NCBI GenBank assembly: GCA_024663395.1 | Contig: JANFAH010000011.1 | Location: 1,703,804-1,767,803, forward strand | Direction: 5' to 3' | Length of the DNA: 64,000 bases | Source of the DNA: Pisolithus tinctorius | Taxonomy: Eukaryota; Basidiomycota; Agaricomycetes; Boletales; Pisolithaceae | Shown: one piece after another, positions 53,841 to 64,000 of the stretch | How positions within the stretch are numbered: position 1 is the first letter of the stretch | How the letters are laid out: every line of letters starts with the position of its first letter | Position numbers and translations under genes: made by a program | The notes under the pieces: generated by a model | Told to the model about the DNA's origin: nothing | The model's input: only the letters and a program-made list of their open reading frames with translations | Database searches by the model: none

Positions 53841-54600
53841 GTCAGTTTATGCTCAATTGTAAAGTTACAAAATTATGTCTTGCCTACTAAACCTAGTGCA
53901 TGTTTTGATTTGTGTGCATCACCAAGTTTTCAATCATAGGGAATGAGTAGGCACACTGCAAAGTCCCCAGACATAGCATGCAGTGGGGGAGAAATGAAAT
54001 GTGGACAACAGCTTTTAAGAAATTGGTAAAGCCAGGAGTTGAGAACAGGATGGCTTCATCATCAACCTTTGCTTCTGAATGAGCCTTCAACTCCAAAGCA
54101 TCCTGAGAACAAGTGACTTTCAAGGTCAGTAATAGGGGGGAACTGCTCAGTGCCCATCTCAGCCAGGTAGCCAAGCTGAAGGCATGTGCATCATGTTCAT
54201 CACTGTGAGACTGCACTAGTACTGGCAAAGAGGACAGCACAAACAAGGGATGTAGTCATGCACATCAGCCCCTCTACAAATCATGAATCATCAGACACCT
54301 CCCAAAAAAACAATGGGCAGGTCAGACCATGCCACAGATATATTGAAACCTATAGGCTACCTCAGTAGGTGTGAAACTACTGAGGGAATAGTGAAGGGAA
54401 TGTATCACTATGTATGCCTCTAAGGTGATTATGTAAGCATGGCTGAAGCGCACCTAAGTCACCACCACACTGGCACTTTATAATCTCCAACAAGATAGGT
54501 GTCACCAGTCCAGCAAAAACACACAGGACAAACCAAATTTCAGACTGGACTTTGAGGCATCCAGCAACACATTATGTAAGGCAACACACTGTAAGATTAT
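53841..54600. other. Intergenic, possibly more pseudogene sequence
   Basis: A minus frame at 53893-54246 (117 codons) has no domain I recognise. It could be further decayed sequence from the same duplication as the RPB1 fragments. Confidence 0.3.
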
Positions 54601-54603
54601 ACA

Positions 54604-54905
54604 GTCTTTGACTCTGTATCTACAGCATTAATGAATGGGAAGTATAAGGGTAGGAAGGGTATCATTGGCAAACACTGGGCCATGTATAGAATTAGTGGGG
54701 ATGAAGTCTTTGACTCTGTATCTACAGTGTTAATGAATGGAAAGTATGAGGGTAGGAAGGGTATCATTGGTGAATGCTGGGCCATGTATAGAGTCAGTGG
54801 GGATGAAGTCTTTGACTCTGTATCTACAGTGTTAACGAATGGAAAGTACGAGGGTAGGAAGGGTATCATTGGCAAGCAACTGGGTCATGCATAGAATCAG
54901 TGGGG
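54604..54905. repeat. 102-bp tandem repeat, three copies
   Basis: GTCTTTGACTCTGTATCTAC starts at 54604, 54706 and 54808; each unit also has AGGGTAGGAAGGGTATCATT and GGGCCATGTATAG. A diverged fourth copy lies at 54980-55062. The unit is divisible by three, which keeps both strands open. Confidence 0.9.
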
Positions 54906-55139
54906 ATGAGATGGTAATTGAAATGCATATGACATACCTCCGCAGCAACAGCCATGTGGGGTGGTGCTCGCTGAAAGGTAAGGATCAGTGTCCATAGTAC
55001 TAATGAATGGGGAGGGGGGTATCATCAATGAGCACTGGGTTATGCATGTAATCAGTGAAGATGGGGGTATGTAACATAGGTGTACATAACGTACCTAATA
55101 ATCTAAACCGTCCGCCCAGTTCCAGTCTCGAAAGCGCCT

Positions 55140-56430
55140 ACTATAAAAGGAAATTCGAAAAAGCGCCTACTATATATGGTAATTGCACAACTCATCGATG
55201 ACTTGTGCAGGCAAAAACATGTAAAAAATCACACAGCCACTGAAAGCTGTGTATAGCCACCGAAAGCGCCTACTATATATGGACGAAAGCTGTGTATAGC
55301 CACAAAAGCGCCTACCATATAAGGAAACAGGTTTTATATAGCACAAGGCAACTACACAACTTATCGATGAGTTGCAATGGCCTGACACCAAAAAAATCAC
55401 ACTGCCACTGAAAGCTGTGTATAGCCACTGAAAGCGCCTACCATATATGGGTGAAAGCTGTGTATAGCCACAAAAGCGCCTACCATATAAGGAAACAGGT
55501 TTTATATAGCACAAGGCAACTACACAACTTATCGATGAGTTGCAATGGCCCGACACCAAAAAAATCACACTGCCACTGAAAGCTGTGTATAGCCACTGAA
55601 AGCGCCTACCATATATGGGTGAAAGCTGTGTATAGCCACAAAAGTGCCTACCATATAAGGAAACAGGTTTTATATAGCACAAGGCAACTACACAACTTAT
55701 CGATGAGTTGCAATGGCCCGACACCAAAAAAATCACACTGCCACTGAAAGCTGTGTATAGCCACTGAAAGCGCCTACCATATATGGGTGAAAGCTCTGTA
55801 TAGCCACAAAAGCGCCTACCATATATAGAAACAAGCTGTGCAATGCCCAAGGCAACTACGCAACTCATCGATGAGTTGCAATGACCTGACACCAAAGAAA
55901 AATCATCCTGCCACCAAAAGCTGTGTATAGCCACTGAAAGCACCTACCATATATGGGTGAAAGCTGTGTATAGCCACAAAAGCGCCTACCATATATAGAA
56001 ACAAGCTGTGCAATGCCCAAGGCAACTACGCAACTCATCGATGAGTTGCAATGACCTGACACCAAAGAAAAATCATCCTGCCACCAAAAGCTGTGTATAG
56101 CCACTGAAAGCACCTACCATATATGGGTGAAAGCTGTGTATAGCCACAAAAGCGCCTACCATATATAGAAACAAGCTGTGCAATGCCCAAGGCAACTACG
56201 CAACTCATCGATGAGTTGCAATGACCTGACACCAAAGAAAAATCATCCTGCCACCAAAAGCTGTGTATAGCCACTGAAAGCGCCTACCATATATGGGTGA
56301 AAGCTGTGTATAGCCACAAAAGCACCTACCATATATAGAAACAAGCTGTGCAATGCCCAAGGCAACTATGCAAATCATCGATGAGTTGCAATGGTCTGAC
56401 CACCAAAAAAAAAATCACACTGCCATTGAA
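55140..56430. repeat. 168-170-bp subtelomeric array upstream of the helicase gene
   Basis: Seven units; the palindrome centres at 55363, 55533, 55701, 55869, 56039, 56209 and 56379 fix the 168-170-bp step. Each unit has GAAAGCTGTGTATAGCCAC twice, GCGCCTACCATATATGG, a related AAAGCGCCTACCATATA and CAACTCATCGATGAGTTG. The minus strand stays open for up to 257 codons because of the repeat. The array ends about 90 bases before a TATA box, so it occupies the upstream control region of the next gene. Confidence 0.93.
55315..56296. promoter_or_regulatory. Nine CArG-type boxes (MADS-box sites) in the upstream array
   Basis: Perfect CC(A/T)6GG sequences: CCATATAAGG at 55315, 55483 and 55651; CCATATATGG at 55441, 55609, 55777, 55947, 56117 and 56287. 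CArG boxes are bound by SRF/Mcm1-type MADS proteins. Four more CCATATAAGG copies lie beyond the gene at 61706, 61758, 61810 and 62057. Binding here is inferred from the sequence only. Confidence 0.5.
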
Positions 56431-56518
56431 AGCTGTGTATAGCTGCTGAAAAAATTACACTGCCATGCAAAGCACCTACCATGTATAGATAACAGCTCTG
56501 CATAGCCACAGATAGCCA

Positions 56519-56528
56519 GTATATATAG
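56519..56528 (+). promoter_or_regulatory. TATA box of the subtelomeric helicase gene
   Basis: GTATATATAG lies about 100 bases before the ATG at 56622, between the end of the array and a C/T-rich leader (TTTCTTTCCTCTTTCCCTCC). Confidence 0.6.
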
Positions 56529-56621
56529 CATCCATTGTGAGAAAGGTATTTCTTTCCTCTTTCCCTCCCTCCATTTTCTTTCTTCTGATCTTTCCCATCA
56601 TCACCATCATCACACAGTAGC

Positions 56622-59600
56622 ATGGCTTACACATGCAGCACCTGTGGAGCAGAGTTTGACAACAAAAATCTACACAACACTCACAACAAAAAATGTGTCA
56701 GAGTATCAACCTTTTCTGCACCTGATGGACAGCAGGTTACAGTACACAGGACAGGCAGTCTATTCTTATGCTACTGTTCTGAGGCATCCTGCCCTAAAGC
56801 AACAGGGTATTCAACCACAGATGCCTTGAAAGCACACATGAAGAGGGCCAAGTCCACTTGGTTAGGCCCAGAAAAAAAGGTAAATCAAAGCATTCAAGAT
56901 TCAATTGCAACTGAAAAAACATGTAGAAACAGAGTGAAATGTCATCCTCATCATATAATACTACTGCCTCTGGCCATTCCAGTGCCATGGCCCCTTCAAC
57001 TAGCACCATGTCTGCACAACTCATCGATGAGTTGTGCAATCAAGGATCAGTAAGTGCTGTTTTGCTAGCTTGACAGTGGTCTTGACACCACAATGCAGGC
57101 CCCAGCTGGGGATATCAACATGCATTCCCCATCAGCAGAGTCTTCAGCCAGCAGCACAGACAGGGTAAGCTCACCCACCTTTGCACAACTCATCAATGAC
57201 TTATGCAAGCCATTGCAGCATGGACATGGATCCATAGCATCTCCCATGTCAGTGCAAGTGGGGTCTCCAGTCCCAGAGTCCATTCAAGACATTTCTTTCA
57301 AAGTAAGATTAATAGAATTTGGCAAGCTCATACTACGAGCCTGATCTCATGGTCACAGTCTTTGCTTGCATCCAAAAAAAACATACAAACCACTCAACCA
57401 GCCCAGTCACAGCTGTCTACTGTGGGTGGCCTCATCTACCACCCATATCTCAGCACACTCTACCTGGCTGTCAACAAAGAATTTCTCTGCCTTGTATGCA
57501 TGAGTTGCAAGATCACCATTCCCAGAACCAATGTGACCAACCACATTGCCACCAATCATTCCATCATGAACGTGGATCAGATCCAGCTCAATGGTGCCTT
57601 GTCAGAAACCAATGTCGCTTCTGTTCTCCCCACAGAAATCAGAGGACCACGAGACATTGTCCAAGGGCTGGCAGTCTGGGATGCATTTTCATGTGACCAC
57701 TGTCCAAAAATCTACACAACAGAGCAGAAAATACAGGACCATCACCAACGAGAACACAAGAATATCACAGCACCACGAGCATGGAGGATGTGCAGAGCTC
57801 AAAGCATGAATGCACAGGGCTATGGCACACATCGTATCCTCTGGGAAGTCAAAGAGCCAGCAGTGGCCAATGCCAAAGACATTTCCACAGGAGCATTGGC
57901 AAACAGCCTCCTAAAGGAATTGGAACAAGACTTCTGCATCCCCCCTCAAGCCAATCAAGACGAGCGCATGATCACTCCATGGCTCATGACAACACGATGG
58001 CATGAATATCTGGCTACTGCTCCACATGAAGTGGAAACCTTGCGAAACCTGGTAGCAATACCCAAGGACAACGATGAGACCTTGCCTGGACTGCGATTGG
58101 CAGTCACTCAGTATTTCAAGCATGCTTTGGACCTTTTGGACACCTCAAATGAGCTGGTCTTGCAGCGATTGAATTCGCCAGACCCAGTCAAAGAGTAAGC
58201 ACCATCATCACATGCATAACTCATCGATGACTTATGCACACACACCCTCACAACAGGGGCATCTCAAATACACCATTGCATAGGCACATGCTAGCAAAGA
58301 CAATGGATGGCTATGTCATCCCAGTGGCTGCTTTGCTGGCCTTTCTCCTTCACAAAGTGCCTAGAAGCGAAGAGCTAGCCAATGCATTGCAGACACTACT
58401 GGAAGGATTGCAGGGCAGGGCCAATCAAGATGTCATTTGCAAATGCATTCATGCAGTGTTGATCAGCACCTGGACCATTACCTGGAAACGAATCACACCT
58501 GGCACCATTGCAGATCCAACCGAAGAGTGTCTTGCACTCCTGACACTGCAGCGAGGGGGCACATTCAAGGAACCCAAGGACATCACCAACACCATTGCCA
58601 AGTTTACATACTGCATGCGCTTGACATTCCTCATGGAGATCCAGAACCGTGCTGCATCCACTGACCCAGAGGTTCAGCACAAAGCATGTGACAGCCTTCA
58701 GCCTTGGTTCACTGAAAAAACACTTTCAACATTTGCTCGTCTTCGCTCCCTCCAACATCGTGCCAGTGCCATCTCCTATGACACTATGGGCCTGCCAAAA
58801 ATTTGGTGGAAGGATACCGAAAACTGGACATCCATGCTCTACAAAGGTGAAGAGATCCAGTTCAGGGATCTGTGTTCCATGTTTGCAGACACAGAGGCAA
58901 GGCTAGTGGAGCTATGGGAACAATGCATCCTCAATGGCACTGCACAACTCATCGATGAGTTGTGCATAGTGGATGACCTCACCAACAGAGAGGTGGGGTA
59001 TTCCTTTGTTGCAGATCCCAGGAACACTGCATTCAAGTGCAAGGGACAACTTGTCCAAGCTGCATTGGCAGGTGAAGGAGGGTTTGTTCACTATGCTACA
59101 GTCTTGGCTGATGGCAAGGTGCAATGGAACAAGAGGGCACTGAGGACATGGCTTCAGGACTATGCAGAGATGGGAGCACTGTTGCTGTTGCGAGCAGAAA
59201 TGCTGAGTGGAGCCCCAGGTCGGGGCACAGAGCTGACTGCCATGACATATCGCAACACAAAGACACGGCCCACCCGTAACCTGGTCATGCTTGGCAACCA
59301 TCTCACCATCCTGTGCCAGTACATGAAGATGACTGCTCTCACTGGACGAGACAAGATGATACCACATGCTCTCGATGGCCTGACCAGCAACATCATGATA
59401 CAAGACTTGGCCCTGGCCCGTCCCTTTGCAAAGATTGCTGCCAAAGTATGCTTCCCAGACAAGCCAGAGATCAGGCAACTCTACCATGACCACCTGTTTG
59501 TCAACTTTGACAGACTGTTTACATCAGAGGACCTTTCAAACATCATGTCCAAATACAGCCTGCCCTGCCTCAAGTTTGCCTTGACCATCAATCCTTGGCG

Positions 59601-61219
59601 CCACATCCAGACTGCTTGGAAACGCAAGTTCCGATGTCTGGCAGAGGATATCATGGAGGAGGACATGGTGGACAATGTGGAAGCACTTCAGGCAGGGCAC
59701 ACGAGGTCCACGGAAAACAGAGTCTATGGGCTGAGCATGCAAGCCATGGCAGGAGCTGCAGAGGACATCCTCCCCTCCTATCTGAATGCCAGCACATCAT
59801 GGCAGAAACACTGCAAGGTCTTCCCTGGTGGCACACTCCTGCCCTATACCCAACTACGATCATCTGAATTGTCCAATAAAGGGGACACAACACAGCCACC
59901 AGTGCACAACTCATCGATGAGTTATGCAGCACTACCTGTTGAAGAAATTACACAGCAGGTGCTGAAAGGTCTGACTCCAATGTTATCATCCCTCATCCAG
60001 GCTGCTGTGGCAAGAGCACTAAAGGATTCAGGCCTCCCTAGTAAATCCAACCAAAAGGAAAAAGGCAAACAGAAAGCAGATGCCAGTCCTTCAATGACCA
60101 GGCACAGGCACAGGCACAGGCACAGGGTCCTCTCAGAAGATGACATGGGCGAGTTCCAATGTTACAGTGATGATGAACTCAGTGACAACAACTGGGAGCC
60201 AAGCCTTGCATCTGAACAAGAGAGGGAGATGATTGACACCAGGGATTCAGGTATGGAGCATAATGTTGAGTCTGGGAATGAAAAGTTCATTCATTTTGAC
60301 CCCAGGACCATCTCACACTACACATACACCAAGCCCAGTCCCCACCTCTAGTGAAGATGAGGAGCCTACCAGTGACATTGGCATAACTCATCGACGAGTT
60401 GTGACAGAACAGCATACATCACAGAGACCTGGTAGTATTCACCAGGGAAAAGGTAAGGTGCATTTAGATATATCAACAATGAGGAACTGACCCACATTTG
60501 ATGAAGAACACCATCAGGGCCTTGGCAAGGGATTCAATGCTGGCACAACTCATGGACATGTTGTGAACATGCCAAAGCTGACCATCGAGGACAGGGCTCT
60601 GCAGGTCATGAGCCAGATCCTTGCAAATGATTCAGTGACATGGCGATCTACCCAACAGCGGGAGGCCATGATGGCAGTCCTGCAAGGCACTACAGATGTG
60701 ATTGCAGTGCTACCCACTGGTGCTGGAAAATCCATGCTTGCAATAGTCCCTAGCATCATGGAAGAAAACATGGCAACCATTCTTGTCCTACCCCTCAACT
60801 CTCTCATCATGGACTATGAACACCGTCTACAACAGATGAACGTACCCTATCAGCTGTACCAGGGAGGTCAAGATGAAGAGCTGAACACAGTTCATAACCT
60901 CATCCTGACATCAGCAGACAAGGCTCAAACAAGCAACTGGCGACATGCAGTGATGAAGCTGTCATTGAAGAAGACCATTGCTCGCATCGTGTTCGATGAG
61001 GCACACATACCCATGACTGCTCGGAACTATCGACAGCGACTTGACAACATATATCAGGTCCGCATCACAGAATCACAGCTGGTCCTGCTAAGCGCAACCA
61101 TCCCCCCCTCTTTCATTCCTGAGCTCAAGGCAACTTTCAATCTCCTAATAATCTACTTTCCGGAGTCTGCCCCAGACTCCGGGTATTGCATTAGGATTGC
61201 ATTAGCGTCGCTTCGGTAG
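56622..61219 (+). CDS. Telomere-linked helicase-type gene: C2H2 fingers, recombinase-like segment, truncated RecQ-like helicase
   Basis: Seven exons (56622-56879, 56927-57049, 57099-57302, 57359-58194, 58257-60250, 60306-60452, 60507-61219) with 47-62-bp GT..AG introns join into one frame of 1424 residues. C2H2-like fingers: YTCSTCGAEF (res. 3), FLCYCSEASC, EFLCLVCMSCKITIPRTNVT (OrsD/DUF3505-like) and FSCDHCPKIYTTEQKIQDHH. Residues ~790-965 look like a tyrosine recombinase: Arg796 in GAPGRGTEL, NPWRHIQTAW (Arg922), then AGHTRSTENRVYG with His955 and Tyr964 nine apart. The C-terminal part has Walker A PTGAGKS (1257-1263), DEAH (1351-1354) and SAT (1383-1385) but no helicase C lobe: after ELKATFNLL it runs into repeat DNA. 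Full-length relatives sit next to telomeres in fungi and are linked to telomere maintenance by recombination. Exon borders are my reading; truncation likely removes helicase activity. Confidence 0.82.
61160..61182. repeat. Perfect hairpin at the gene/repeat junction
   Basis: CCGGAGTCTG, three C, then CAGACTCCGG: a 10-bp perfect stem at the point where helicase similarity ends and the ATTAGG-type repeat begins. Confidence 0.8.
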
Positions 61220-61660
61220 TGCATCGCTAGTGCAGGTATTGCATTAGGATTGCATTAGCGTTGCTTTGGTAGTGCATCGCTAGTGCAGGTATTGCATTAG
61301 GATTGCATTAGGATTGCATTAGTGTTGCTTTGGTAGTGCATTGGTAGTGCATTAGGATTGCATTAGCGTTGCTTCGGTAGTGCATCGGTAGTGCATTAGG
61401 ATTGCATTAGGATTGCACTAGTATTGCATTAGGATTGCATTAGCGTTGCTTCAGTAGTGCATCGGTAGTGCATTAGGATTGCATTAGGATTGCATTAGTG
61501 TTGCATTGGTAGTGCATTAGGATTGCATTAGTACTGCATTAGGATTGCATTAGCACCACTTCAGTAGTGCATTGGTATTGCATTAGGATTGCATTAGCAT
61601 CACTTCAGTAGTGCATTGGTAGTGCATTAGGATTGCATTAGTACTGCATTAGCATTGCTT
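61183..61660. repeat. Interspersed short repeats GCATTAGGATT / GGTAGTGCATC
   Basis: GCATTAGGATT, GCATTAGCGTTGCTT and CGGTAGTGCATCGGTAGT alternate irregularly for ~480 bases. The first ~35 bases encode the artificial C-terminus of the truncated helicase. Confidence 0.9.
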
Positions 61661-62115
61661 GCATGCATCCATGAATGCAACCAACACAGCCACTGAATGC
61701 AACCACCATATAAGGAAGTTGCATGCATGCAACCTACACAGCCACTGCATGCAACCACCATATAAGGAAGTTGCATGCATGCAACCTACACAGCCACTGA
61801 ATGCAACCACCATATAAGGAAGTTGCATGCATGCAACCTCACAGCCACTGAATGCAACCTCCAAGTGAGTGAATGCAACCTACACAGCCACTGCTTGCAA
61901 CCTGCACAGCCACTGAATGCAACCAACACAGCCACTGCATGCAACCAACACAGCCACTGCATGCAACCAACACAGCCACTGAATGCAACCAACACAGCCA
62001 CTGCATGCAACCTGCACAGCCACTGAAGGCAAGCTCACAGCCACTGAGGGCAACCACCATATAAGGAAATGCACAGCCACCAGGAAGTTGGTGGAGGGAA
62101 GCAACACAGCCACCC
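61660..62115. repeat. ATGCAACC/ACACAGCCACTG subtelomeric repeat
   Basis: GAATGCAACCAACACAGCCA-type 24-bp units repeat about 15 times; the first copies are expanded by ACCATATAAGGAAGTTGCATG (with a CArG box). ACAGCCACTG echoes ATAGCCACTG of the array upstream of the gene. Confidence 0.9.
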
Positions 62116-62126
62116 TAAGTGAAAAA

Positions 62127-62687
62127 AATAAGCGACCGGTTGCTTATCTGGATGCAAGATGACTAGCAAGTAATTAGCCAAAAAAAGCGGAGTAAGCAAT
62201 GAGCACTGACTACTGATGACCAACTACTGACCACTTACAACAGACATGGTGAATGTGTGTAGCAAAAATAAGCAACCGGTTGCTTATTTCTGGACAGAAG
62301 ATGAGTAGTGAGATGATTAGCAAAAAAGGGGGTTACTGATGATGACCTGGCAACTACTGAGTGACTTGAATAAGATGACTAGCAATAAAAGGGAAGATGG
62401 TAATGACTACTGACTACCAAGTAGCAAAAATAAGGGAGCAGTTGGCTATTTGGATTGAAGATGACTAGTGAGTTGATTAGCAAAAAAGCGGACTACCAAG
62501 GGATGTAGTGGTAACTACTGACTGACTATGGACAAGACATGTTCTGACTAGCAACTGACCAGCAAAAAATAAGGGACAGGTTGCTTATCTGAAATAGGGC
62601 TGACAGGACTACTGAGGGAGTGAGTGATTAGGATGATGAGCTGGCTGATGGGTATGGGTAGAGAAAATAAGCGACCGGTTGCTTATC
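62127..62687. repeat. 22-bp palindrome AATAAGCAACC/GGTTGCTTATT, five copies
   Basis: A perfect copy at 62267-62288; variants at 62127, 62429, 62568 and 62666 (start positions) spaced ~100-160 bases. Between them lie loosely repeated phrases such as GATGACTAG and ACTACTGA. No coding frame. Confidence 0.88.
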
Positions 62688-62799
62688 TGGAGAGGTAAGA
62701 CAGACTACTACTTACTATGATGACTACAGATATTACAGATTACTGAGTTGGTGATGGAAGTAGGGAAAGTAACTGCAAGTCAACTGGGATGAAAACCAT

Positions 62800-63080
62800 G
62801 GTAAAAAATGCGGAGATAACCCCCAAGAAAACCCCAGTAAATAACCCGGAAATAACCCCTGTGAAAACCCCGGTAAAAAACGCGGAGATAACCCCTGTGA
62901 AAAGCCCGGTAAATAACCCAGAAATAACCCGCATGAAAAGCCCGGTAAAAAAAACCCGGAGATAACCCGCATGAAAAGCCCAGTAAATAACCCGGAAATA
63001 ACCCGCATGAAAAGCCCGGTAAAAAAACCCGGAGATAACCCCCGTGAAAAGCCCGGTAAGTGACCCCGAGATAACCCCCG
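62800..63080. repeat. ~35-bp tandem repeat with CCCGGTAAATAACCC
   Basis: Units AAAAGCCCGGTAAATAACCC, GGAAATAACCCGCATG and AAAACCCGGAGATAACCCC repeat about eight times. The stretch ends in a run of 16 C at 63083-63098. Confidence 0.88.
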
Positions 63081-63082
63081 GA

Positions 63083-63098
63083 CCCCCCCCCCCCCCCC
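63083..63098. repeat. Poly-C run of 16
   Basis: Homopolymer that separates C-containing subtelomeric repeats from the nearly C-free tract to the right. Confidence 0.9.
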
Positions 63099-63099
63099 G

Positions 63100-63857
63100 A
63101 GTGAGAGTGGTGTTGGTAGTGAAAGTGTAGTGTTCGATGTTTTTAGTAGTAGTAGTAGTAGTAGTAATGGTAATGGTAATGGTAATAATAATAATAGTAG
63201 TAAGAGTAGAGTAGTGTGGGATGTTTTTGGTAGTGGTAGTGATAATAATGGTAGTAAAGTTGGTAGTAGTGTTGGTAGTAGTGTTGGTAATAGGAATAGA
63301 GTAGTGTGCGAAGATTTTGGTAGTAGTAGTAGGAATGGTAATGGTAGTATAGTTGGTAGTGTTGGTAATGGGAATAGTGTAAAGTGGGATGAAATGTGTA
63401 GAAGTGGTAGTGTAAGTAGTGGTAGTCGGGGTAATAGTAATAGTAATGGTAGTGTAGTGTGGGAAGTTTTTGGTAGTAGATGTGTAGTTGGTAGGAATAG
63501 TGTAGTGTGGGATGAAATTGGTAGTAGTAGTGGTAATAGGAATAGGGTAGAGTGGGAGGTTTAGAGTGGTAATGTTGGTGGTAGTAAGAGTAATAGTAGT
63601 AGTAGTATAGTTGGTAGTGTTGGTAATAGGAATAGAGTAGTGTGGGAAGATTTTGGTAGTAGTAGTAGTGTAAGTAGTGTAAGTAGTGGTGGTGGTGGTG
63701 GTGGTAGGAATGGTAGGAATGGTAGTGTAGTGTGGGAAGAAATTGGTGGGAGTAGTAGGAATGATAATAGGAATAGGGTAATGTAGGATTTGATGTGTAG
63801 AAGTGGTAGTGTAAGTAGTGGTAGTGGTAGTATGAGTAATAGTAATGGTAGTGTAGT
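63100..63857. repeat. Nearly C-free GGTAGT/GGTAAT cryptic repeat next to the telomere
   Basis: The plus strand consists almost only of G, T and A in units GGTAGT, GGTAAT, AGTAGTG and GTAGTGTGGGA(A/T)G. C appears only a handful of times in ~750 bases. The 144-codon open frame at 63130-63564 (Ser/Asn/Gly runs) is a by-product. Confidence 0.9.
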
Positions 63858-64000
63858 GAGGGTTAGGGTTAGGTTAGGTTAGGTTAGGGTTAGGTTAGGG
63901 TTAGGTTAGGGTTAGGGTTAGGTTAGGGTTAGGTTAGGTTAGTGTTAGGTTAGGTTATTTTAAGGTTAGGTAGGGTTAGGGTGTTTAGGGTTAGGTAGGT
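63858..64000 (+). repeat. Telomere repeats, mixed TTAGGG and TTAGG
   Basis: About 22 units, roughly half TTAGGG and half TTAGG, with irregular units (TTAGTG, TTATTTTAAGG, GGTGTTTAGGG) towards the end. G-rich strand 5' to 3' toward the right end, as expected at a chromosome end. The irregularity may be real or a read-end effect. Confidence 0.9.

Follow-up and report, generated by a model that had tools for sequence, protein, structure and literature searches.

Why does a single 24-bp palindrome recur, in all three reading frames and once in an intron, within one gene at the end of a Pisolithus tinctorius chromosome, and again in every unit of the repeat array upstream of that gene? The window, i.e. 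the whole stretch of 64,000 nucleotides that was analyzed, is the telomeric end of contig C11. In an earlier reading made from the letters alone (the sequence-only reading), the palindrome was proposed to be a protein binding or recombination site, or the footprint of a very short mobile sequence. The analysis presented here goes beyond that reading in describing the mobile element that carries the palindromes, a putative tyrosine-recombinase-like domain in the middle of its protein, and the different palindromes of other lineages.

The palindrome in the window and in the genome

When the window was scanned with the palindrome GCACAACTCATCGATGAGTTGTGC, 14 sites were found with 5 mismatches or fewer, and allowing 7 added one more to give 15 (two with 0 mismatches, two with 1, three with 3, seven with 5 and one with 7), all between positions 55185 and 60566. 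The numbers expected by chance, as the mean of 60 first-order Markov sequences, are 0.00, 0.08 and 0.32 at up to 5, 6 and 7 mismatches, respectively. Eight of the 15 sites lie in an array upstream of the gene and seven within the gene, which agrees with the earlier count of about 15 copies, one per 168-170-bp unit upstream and seven inside.

55185..56391, + strand: promoter-side array, 8 units of 168-170 bp with one palindrome each (at 55185, 55354, 55522, 55690, 55858, 56028, 56198 and 56368)
57014..57037, unstranded: palindrome, 0 mismatches, AQLIDELC in the by-eye exon model (scan; an overlapping open frame reads HNSSMSCA)
57183..57206, unstranded: palindrome, 3 mismatches, AQLINDLC (window scan and frame reading)
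58214..58237, unstranded: palindrome, 3 mismatches, inside a 62-nt intron (window scan and intron comparison)
58942..58965, unstranded: palindrome, 0 mismatches, AQLIDELC replacing the family-conserved LRVxY (paralogue alignment)
59904..59927, unstranded: palindrome, 1 mismatch, HNSSMSYA, in the recombinase-helicase linker (linker comparison)
60381..60404, unstranded: palindrome, 3 mismatches, ITHRRVV (window scan and frame reading)
60543..60566, unstranded: palindrome, 5 mismatches, TTHGHVV (window scan and frame reading)

Within the array, the first copy alone is near the full 24-mer. Six further copies keep the inner 18 bp (CAACTYATCGATGAGTTG) and differ from the 24-mer at 5 positions, and the copy at 56368 has an extra core change that brings it to 7 mismatches. 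The peptides read earlier from the gene copies (AQLIDELC, HNSSMSYA and THRRVV/THGHVV) and the single intron copy were all recovered, the copy at 57014 being read according to the by-eye exon model. At 60381 and 60543 the consensus would put a TGA in frame, and both copies deviate at exactly those bases. The proposal that the DNA word and not the peptide is being kept holds up well: the word occurs in several frames, in introns and in the promoter array, and at 58942 AQLIDELC takes the place of LRVxY with the length unchanged.

Across the genome, GCACAACTCATCGATGAGTTGTGC occurs at 242 places at up to 3 mismatches, against 0 for the reversed control, and its 18-bp core at 349 places at up to 2 mismatches (control 0). 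Of the 18 places in the assembly with 0 or 1 mismatch to the 24-mer, 14 are no more than 70 kb from a contig end; among 221 contigs, such end regions can make up about a third of the total sequence at most. The word is thus far from background frequency and is enriched near contig ends, an enrichment for which the sequence-only reading had proposed a test. The element copies on contigs C2 and C35 of the assembly (G000) have the same match scores; the assembly may therefore hold both haplotypes, and the copy counts may be inflated. An exact search of the genome_contigs collection with the 24-mer gave 0 matches.

Palindromes of this type, here called A, are also present in other dispersed repeats, as seen in 20 short loci around further A sites. 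These repeats are unlike the element and include the groups L047-L050, L053/56/59/66 and L052/62/63/65; at E <= 1e-4, not one of the 20 loci was hit by any of 120 element proteins. Several show Gypsy-like frames, named by eye. Another dispersed repeat (L067, C163:17001-25000) contains several palindromes within coding frames, where they are read as AQLxDxLC-like peptides.

The carrier element and its encoded protein

The palindromes of the window belong to an element that is joined to the 5' part of a second one, as follows.

55094..61143, + strand: A-type telomeric element, 3' end cut inside the helicase (copies elsewhere start within one base; CCTAATAATCTA at 55094)
61144..62790, + strand: B-type element, 5' part only and with an approximate right limit; B palindromes at 62126, 62266, 62567 and 62665 from a scan that read minus-strand loci unflipped (starts with CCTAATAATCTA)
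63861..64000, + strand: telomeric repeat (from the sequence)

On other contigs, the start of each copy of the element falls within one base of window position 55094 (CCTAATAATCTAAACC). On C41 the copy stops at the equivalent of window position 59707 and is followed directly by telomere repeats. The copy on C28 stops at 55440 and that of the window at 61143, each being followed by a second element start with the common motif CCTAATAATCTA; the C28 locus (L012, C28:840601-843343) has an A-type element cut at the equivalent of 55440 and then a B-type start, like 61143/61144 of the window. The first 168 bp of the B-type part at 61144 match the start of the B element on C43 at 98%. A pattern designed for counting starts gave 11/10 matches against 5/4 for its control, and element starts were therefore not counted from it.

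The 5' insertion end is CCTAATAAT, which differs from the palindrome. Five junctions have an empty counterpart, and all of these share CCT or more (3-5 bp: CCT, CCTA, CCCT or CCTAA) with the element end. The shared bases are CCT on C55 (5 of 5 empty copies), CCTA on C6 (4 of 5 empty copies, one reading CCAA), CCTAA on C28 (one empty copy, on C43), CCTA for the second element on C28 (the empty counterpart being the native A sequence in the window), and CCCT for a further 5'-end variant on C42 (4 uninterrupted copies). The right half of the target, which would give the 3' end, was not found in short stretches of C6 and C55 and 2.5 kb of C42. Judging from these junctions, the carrier is probably a telomere-associated mobile element with a fixed 5' end, for which insertion and joining to a broken end both fit.

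Two further observations concern the surroundings of such elements. Three 102-bp tandem repeats (54603-54909) lie immediately outside the A element of the window. At two adjoining loci on C6 (L008 and L009, C6:3175682-3180027), the 5' end and array are of A type and are followed by a different gene, likewise with A palindromes; this may be a further gene belonging to the element, or the element may here be in a non-autonomous form.

The gene of the window encodes several domains in series:

56622..56879, + strand: exon 1 (by-eye model) with C2H2-like fingers (zf-C2H2_4, E 0.031, under cut-off in A)
57464..57760, + strand: OrsD domain PF12013 (E 3.2e-8)
58195..58256, + strand: 62-nt intron holding a palindrome (sequence signals alone)
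58257..60351, + strand: open frame with tyrosine-recombinase-like domain (aligned residues about 15-475 of the ORF 58231-60351; R331, K366, R457, H490, Y499)
60491..61143, + strand: DEAD/RecQ-like helicase, truncated (PF00270, E 1.4e-16)

All introns were called from sequence signals and not from transcripts. In the B homologue, two zf-C2H2 stretches are matched (E 3.2e-7). The B copy also matches both DEAD and Helicase_C, which together with the DEAD match in the window indicates a helicase core at the chromosome end; we take this helicase to be RecQ-like. A search of positions 54001-64000 with 4227 Rfam models gave 0 matches at the gathering threshold.

The middle domain was compared with known structures by a fold search with its predicted model, mainly over residues 15-479. 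Among the 18 best structural matches, all but one (17) belong to the tyrosine recombinases or to type I topoisomerases with the same fold. R331, K366, R457 and Y499 are invariant among 29 sequences and H490 is present in at least 90% of them; H490 and Y499 are 9 residues apart, the same as in XerD. Conservation does not extend to the first His of HxxR, and residues 471-490 and 495-510 are modelled at low confidence. No Phage_integrase match was seen in a Pfam search of the A and B proteins, and a PF00589 search of the same genome gave 23 other places, none of them an element locus. A sequence profile search of the PDB gave no relative, and hhalign, with a 3-sequence profile, gave a probability of 0.1% against XerD, FimB and FimE. 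The support for a tyrosine-recombinase-like domain thus lies in the conserved residues and the predicted fold. A distant recombinase-like gene (L068, C41:543001-550000; about 21% identity over the aligned part) has no visible helicase frame, and no palindrome cluster was found in the 7 kb read around it.

Words and positions in related elements

Paralogues with about 52% identity carry other palindromes, which were found by a dyad scan that assumes no word and by a repeat search of four loci. The words are GCACAACTCGTCGACGAGTTGTGC for A2 (on C23), GAATAAGCRACCGGTYGCTTATTC for B (most copies), GAATAAGTGACCGGTCACTTATTC for B3, and ATTTAGTATACATGTATACTAAAT with the variant ATTTAAGATACATGTATACTAAAT for C. 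With 3 mismatches or fewer, a degenerate B 22-mer occurs at 312 places in the genome and its reversed control at 0; the B pattern gave 0 matches in the viral_contigs collection. The B copy on C43 has 18 sites in 10 kb, none of them inside the helicase. Within one element the sites differ by a mean of 2.7-5.2 positions, a figure lowered by the choice of sites at up to 6 mismatches from the consensus, compared with 11.5-19.9 of 24 between A, B and C. In this comparison as a whole, one C site was counted twice (two overlapping C15 stretches were joined).

Whether such sites diverge as fast as their surroundings, which the sequence-only reading had named as counting against it, could be checked in the B family. 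At 5 of 5 sites they do not: conservation is higher in the palindrome than in its 60-bp flanks (0.90-0.99 vs 0.69-0.87) in a comparison of 9 rows, several of which are near-identical.

The sites also stand at homologous positions. In each of A, A2, B, B3 and C, there is a palindrome in the intron of about 60 nt that separates NSPDPxK from GISNTP, spelled in words of the A, A2, B and C types, with the site of the B3 copy nearer the B2 spelling. In the linker between the recombinase-like domain and the helicase, a palindrome is read in codon phase 2 as HNSSMSYA in A, NSSTTCA in A2, NKQPVAYS in B and NKLPVTYS in B3; the alignment has many gaps here, and the sites are spread over 15 of its columns instead of sharing a single one. 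At the 58942 position the full site is found in A only and relatives keep LRVxY. The equivalent stretch of the C copy has 8 of 12 positions paired, which may be chance.

On C42, a second gene near a B copy (L084, C42:23801-26300, minus strand), whose membership in the B element is assumed, has 9 of its 9 B palindromes inside 57-71-nt GT-AG stretches, the introns being taken from the nearest donor and acceptor. Four GT-AG stretches are exactly 59 nt long, in repeated 107-bp units made up of a 48-nt exon and a 59-nt intron. The protein tree has A-type sites in the clade of the window and, judging from peptides, in another, non-sister clade together with A2; B forms one clade and C is a single row. 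As palindrome type does not strictly follow the tree, either A/A2 is ancestral or words have been exchanged, a point that counts against the binding reading proposed below.

Binding, rival explanations and known systems

We suggest, with a probability of roughly 0.55, that the palindromes are two-fold symmetric protein-binding sites of the telomeric element, most likely for its own protein, which would mark its own DNA. Confidence is high in the pattern that can be read from the DNA (sites, conservation, homologous positions, lineage spelling and fixed 5' end) and moderate in the mechanism. The polypeptide of zinc-finger/OrsD, tyrosine-recombinase-like and helicase parts would bind the palindrome as a dimer, with one 12-bp half-site per subunit. 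Since sites are spread across promoter, introns and coding parts, the protein might coat or mark its own element and not others, e.g., countering silencing or flagging the element for copying, and a joint change of protein and sites would give each lineage its own spelling. We infer the binder, its dimeric state and the effect of binding; the fingers and the recombinase-like fold of the encoded protein were counted in favor of binding by the element's protein, as were the genome-wide enrichment, conservation and homologous positions of the sites, their lineage-specific spelling, the intron sites of the C42 gene, and the absence of a palindrome cluster in the 7 kb read around the distant recombinase relative.

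A host DNA-binding protein might instead recognize the palindromes, whose sequence the elements would have adopted for expression or chromatin. The A palindromes in Gypsy-like and other dispersed repeats make a host factor possible as the binder, unless these repeats exploit the element protein, and the array units are in promoter position; their length of 168-170 bp is near a nucleosome repeat length. However, more than one host protein would be called for to explain words that differ so strongly between homologous positions, and the B places listed are found almost exclusively at chromosome ends (of 41 with the exact degenerate pattern, 40 are no more than 70 kb from a contig end). We consider a host binder rather improbable.

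Binding was one of the proposals of the sequence-only reading, and is the best, if putative, reading; another, a recombination site, has fared worse. The palindromes would then be core sites of the encoded recombinase, with two inverted arms and a 6-bp center, which the recombinase-like predicted fold would suit. Their 9-6-9 layout resembles the inverted repeats of 11-13 bp with a 6-8-bp spacer described in PMC3212892. Yet the element joins its target at CCT(AA) in a 5' end of other sequence, 91 bp outside the first palindrome, and one shortened copy (the B part at 61144-62790, compared with C43) has no clean break at a palindrome. Dozens of active sites would, moreover, be expected to make the element delete itself. 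We consider this role unlikely.

The palindromes might also form hairpins in RNA, e.g., to keep short introns together, or be extruded from the DNA as cruciforms. Perfect dyads, several of them inside introns of about 60 nt, would fit such a structure. Pairing was examined in sets of distinct 24-mers (54 for A, 46 for B and 9 for C; 300 shuffles), in which selection near a palindromic consensus raises observed and shuffled pairing alike. In A, pairing is 77.3% vs 74.4 +- 1.0% after shuffling, an excess of only 3 points that nevertheless lies above all 300 shuffles (largest 77.2) and speaks for structure and against separate reading of the halves; the pooling of A and A2 spellings in this set yields some excess by itself. 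There is no clear excess in B (79.5 vs 78.7 +- 1.0%) or C (79.6 vs 77.5 +- 2.1%). A hairpin, furthermore, has no need of one word common to all sites of an element, and sites are also present in the upstream array and in exons. Hairpins or cruciforms seem very improbable.

Left and right half-sites vary nearly independently within a subfamily, which fits each half being read separately. Each half-site seems to be kept for itself, as would be expected for a dimeric protein, rather than for base pairing. The commonest half-sites are GCACAACTCATC in A, AAATAAGCGACC/GAATAAGCRACC in B and ATTTAGTATACA in C. An A stands at position 5 in 100% of each of the three sets (A, B and C) and at position 10 in 75, 99 and 100% of them, respectively. 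The common A at position 5 would suit one ancestral site that diverged along with homologous binders. Loss of methylated CpG might explain the CG-to-CA/TG form seen in the difference between A and A2 and in a large part of the R/Y variation within B.

The third proposal of the sequence-only reading, footprints of a very short mobile sequence, would account for the many dispersed near-identical copies, unrelated repeats included, and is largely refuted by the length-neutral replacement at 58942 and by other words at homologous positions in relatives.

Among known systems, the nearest in behavior are the VANDAL elements of Arabidopsis and their VANC proteins. As described for these (PMC5735166, PMC10398659), an element is dense in a short word and words differ between related elements. 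Here too, a lineage-specific word is repeated over the element, often in tandem repeats and introns, and, as the unrelated repeat AT9TSD1 carries one VANC word, dispersed repeats carry the A word. By contrast, the VANC words described are 8-9 bp long, in one orientation and mainly non-coding, whereas those of Pisolithus are 24-bp palindromes, several of them coding, in different frames and at homologous positions. VANC proteins are anti-silencing proteins; the likeness here is one of word pattern in the sequence.

Cryptons, as presented in PMC3212892, are DNA elements with a tyrosine recombinase and, judged by the predicted enzyme, the nearest class of element. They end in 4-6-bp direct repeats that are thought to be recombination substrates; here, 3-5 bp are common to the 5' end of the element and its target, the right end not having been found. 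Unlike Cryptons, the present element has a helicase, OrsD and zinc fingers, a location at chromosome ends and internal palindromes, and no PF00589 match at its loci. Subtelomeric or telomere-linked RecQ-like helicase genes of fungi (PMC7473861) are likewise multi-copy and in some cases truncated. The account of those genes gives no domain beyond the helicase core, whereas here fingers, OrsD and a recombinase-like domain precede the helicase and the 5' end is fixed. A search of open-access literature found no paper describing the palindrome or a recombinase-helicase element of this kind.

If the preferred reading is true, it would be a second case, fungal and palindromic, of internal recognition words that change with lineage. 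It would give the subtelomeric RecQ-like helicase genes of mushrooms, whose role is so far unclear, a mobile-element context and a testable DNA target. The case would also be unusual in that homologous stretches of coding sequence are kept as DNA sites although the word in them is swapped. The change of specificity would become directly testable, as there are three or more palindromes and each is expected to have a matching protein. More tentatively, the palindromes might form a self/non-self code, in which each recombinase-helicase protein would read its own lineage-specific palindrome, lineages would be mutually exclusive, coding sequence would be bent to the DNA word, and Gypsy-like retrotransposons with the A word may exploit the system.

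Peptides compatible with the palindrome were also looked for in other species, where 35 of 120 proteins have both anchors. In proteins named Suillus, neither of the two best windows is at the spot about 15-19 residues before a conserved helix. Against a background of 2.3% per window at scores of at least 11, the peptides seen there in some other proteins are only suggestive. They score 10-12 of 12, namely HNSSTSYA and HNSSMSYA in Pisolithus, HKSTTTYA and HNLSPEYA in Boletus edulis, and HNLAHDCA and HNLAPECA in others.
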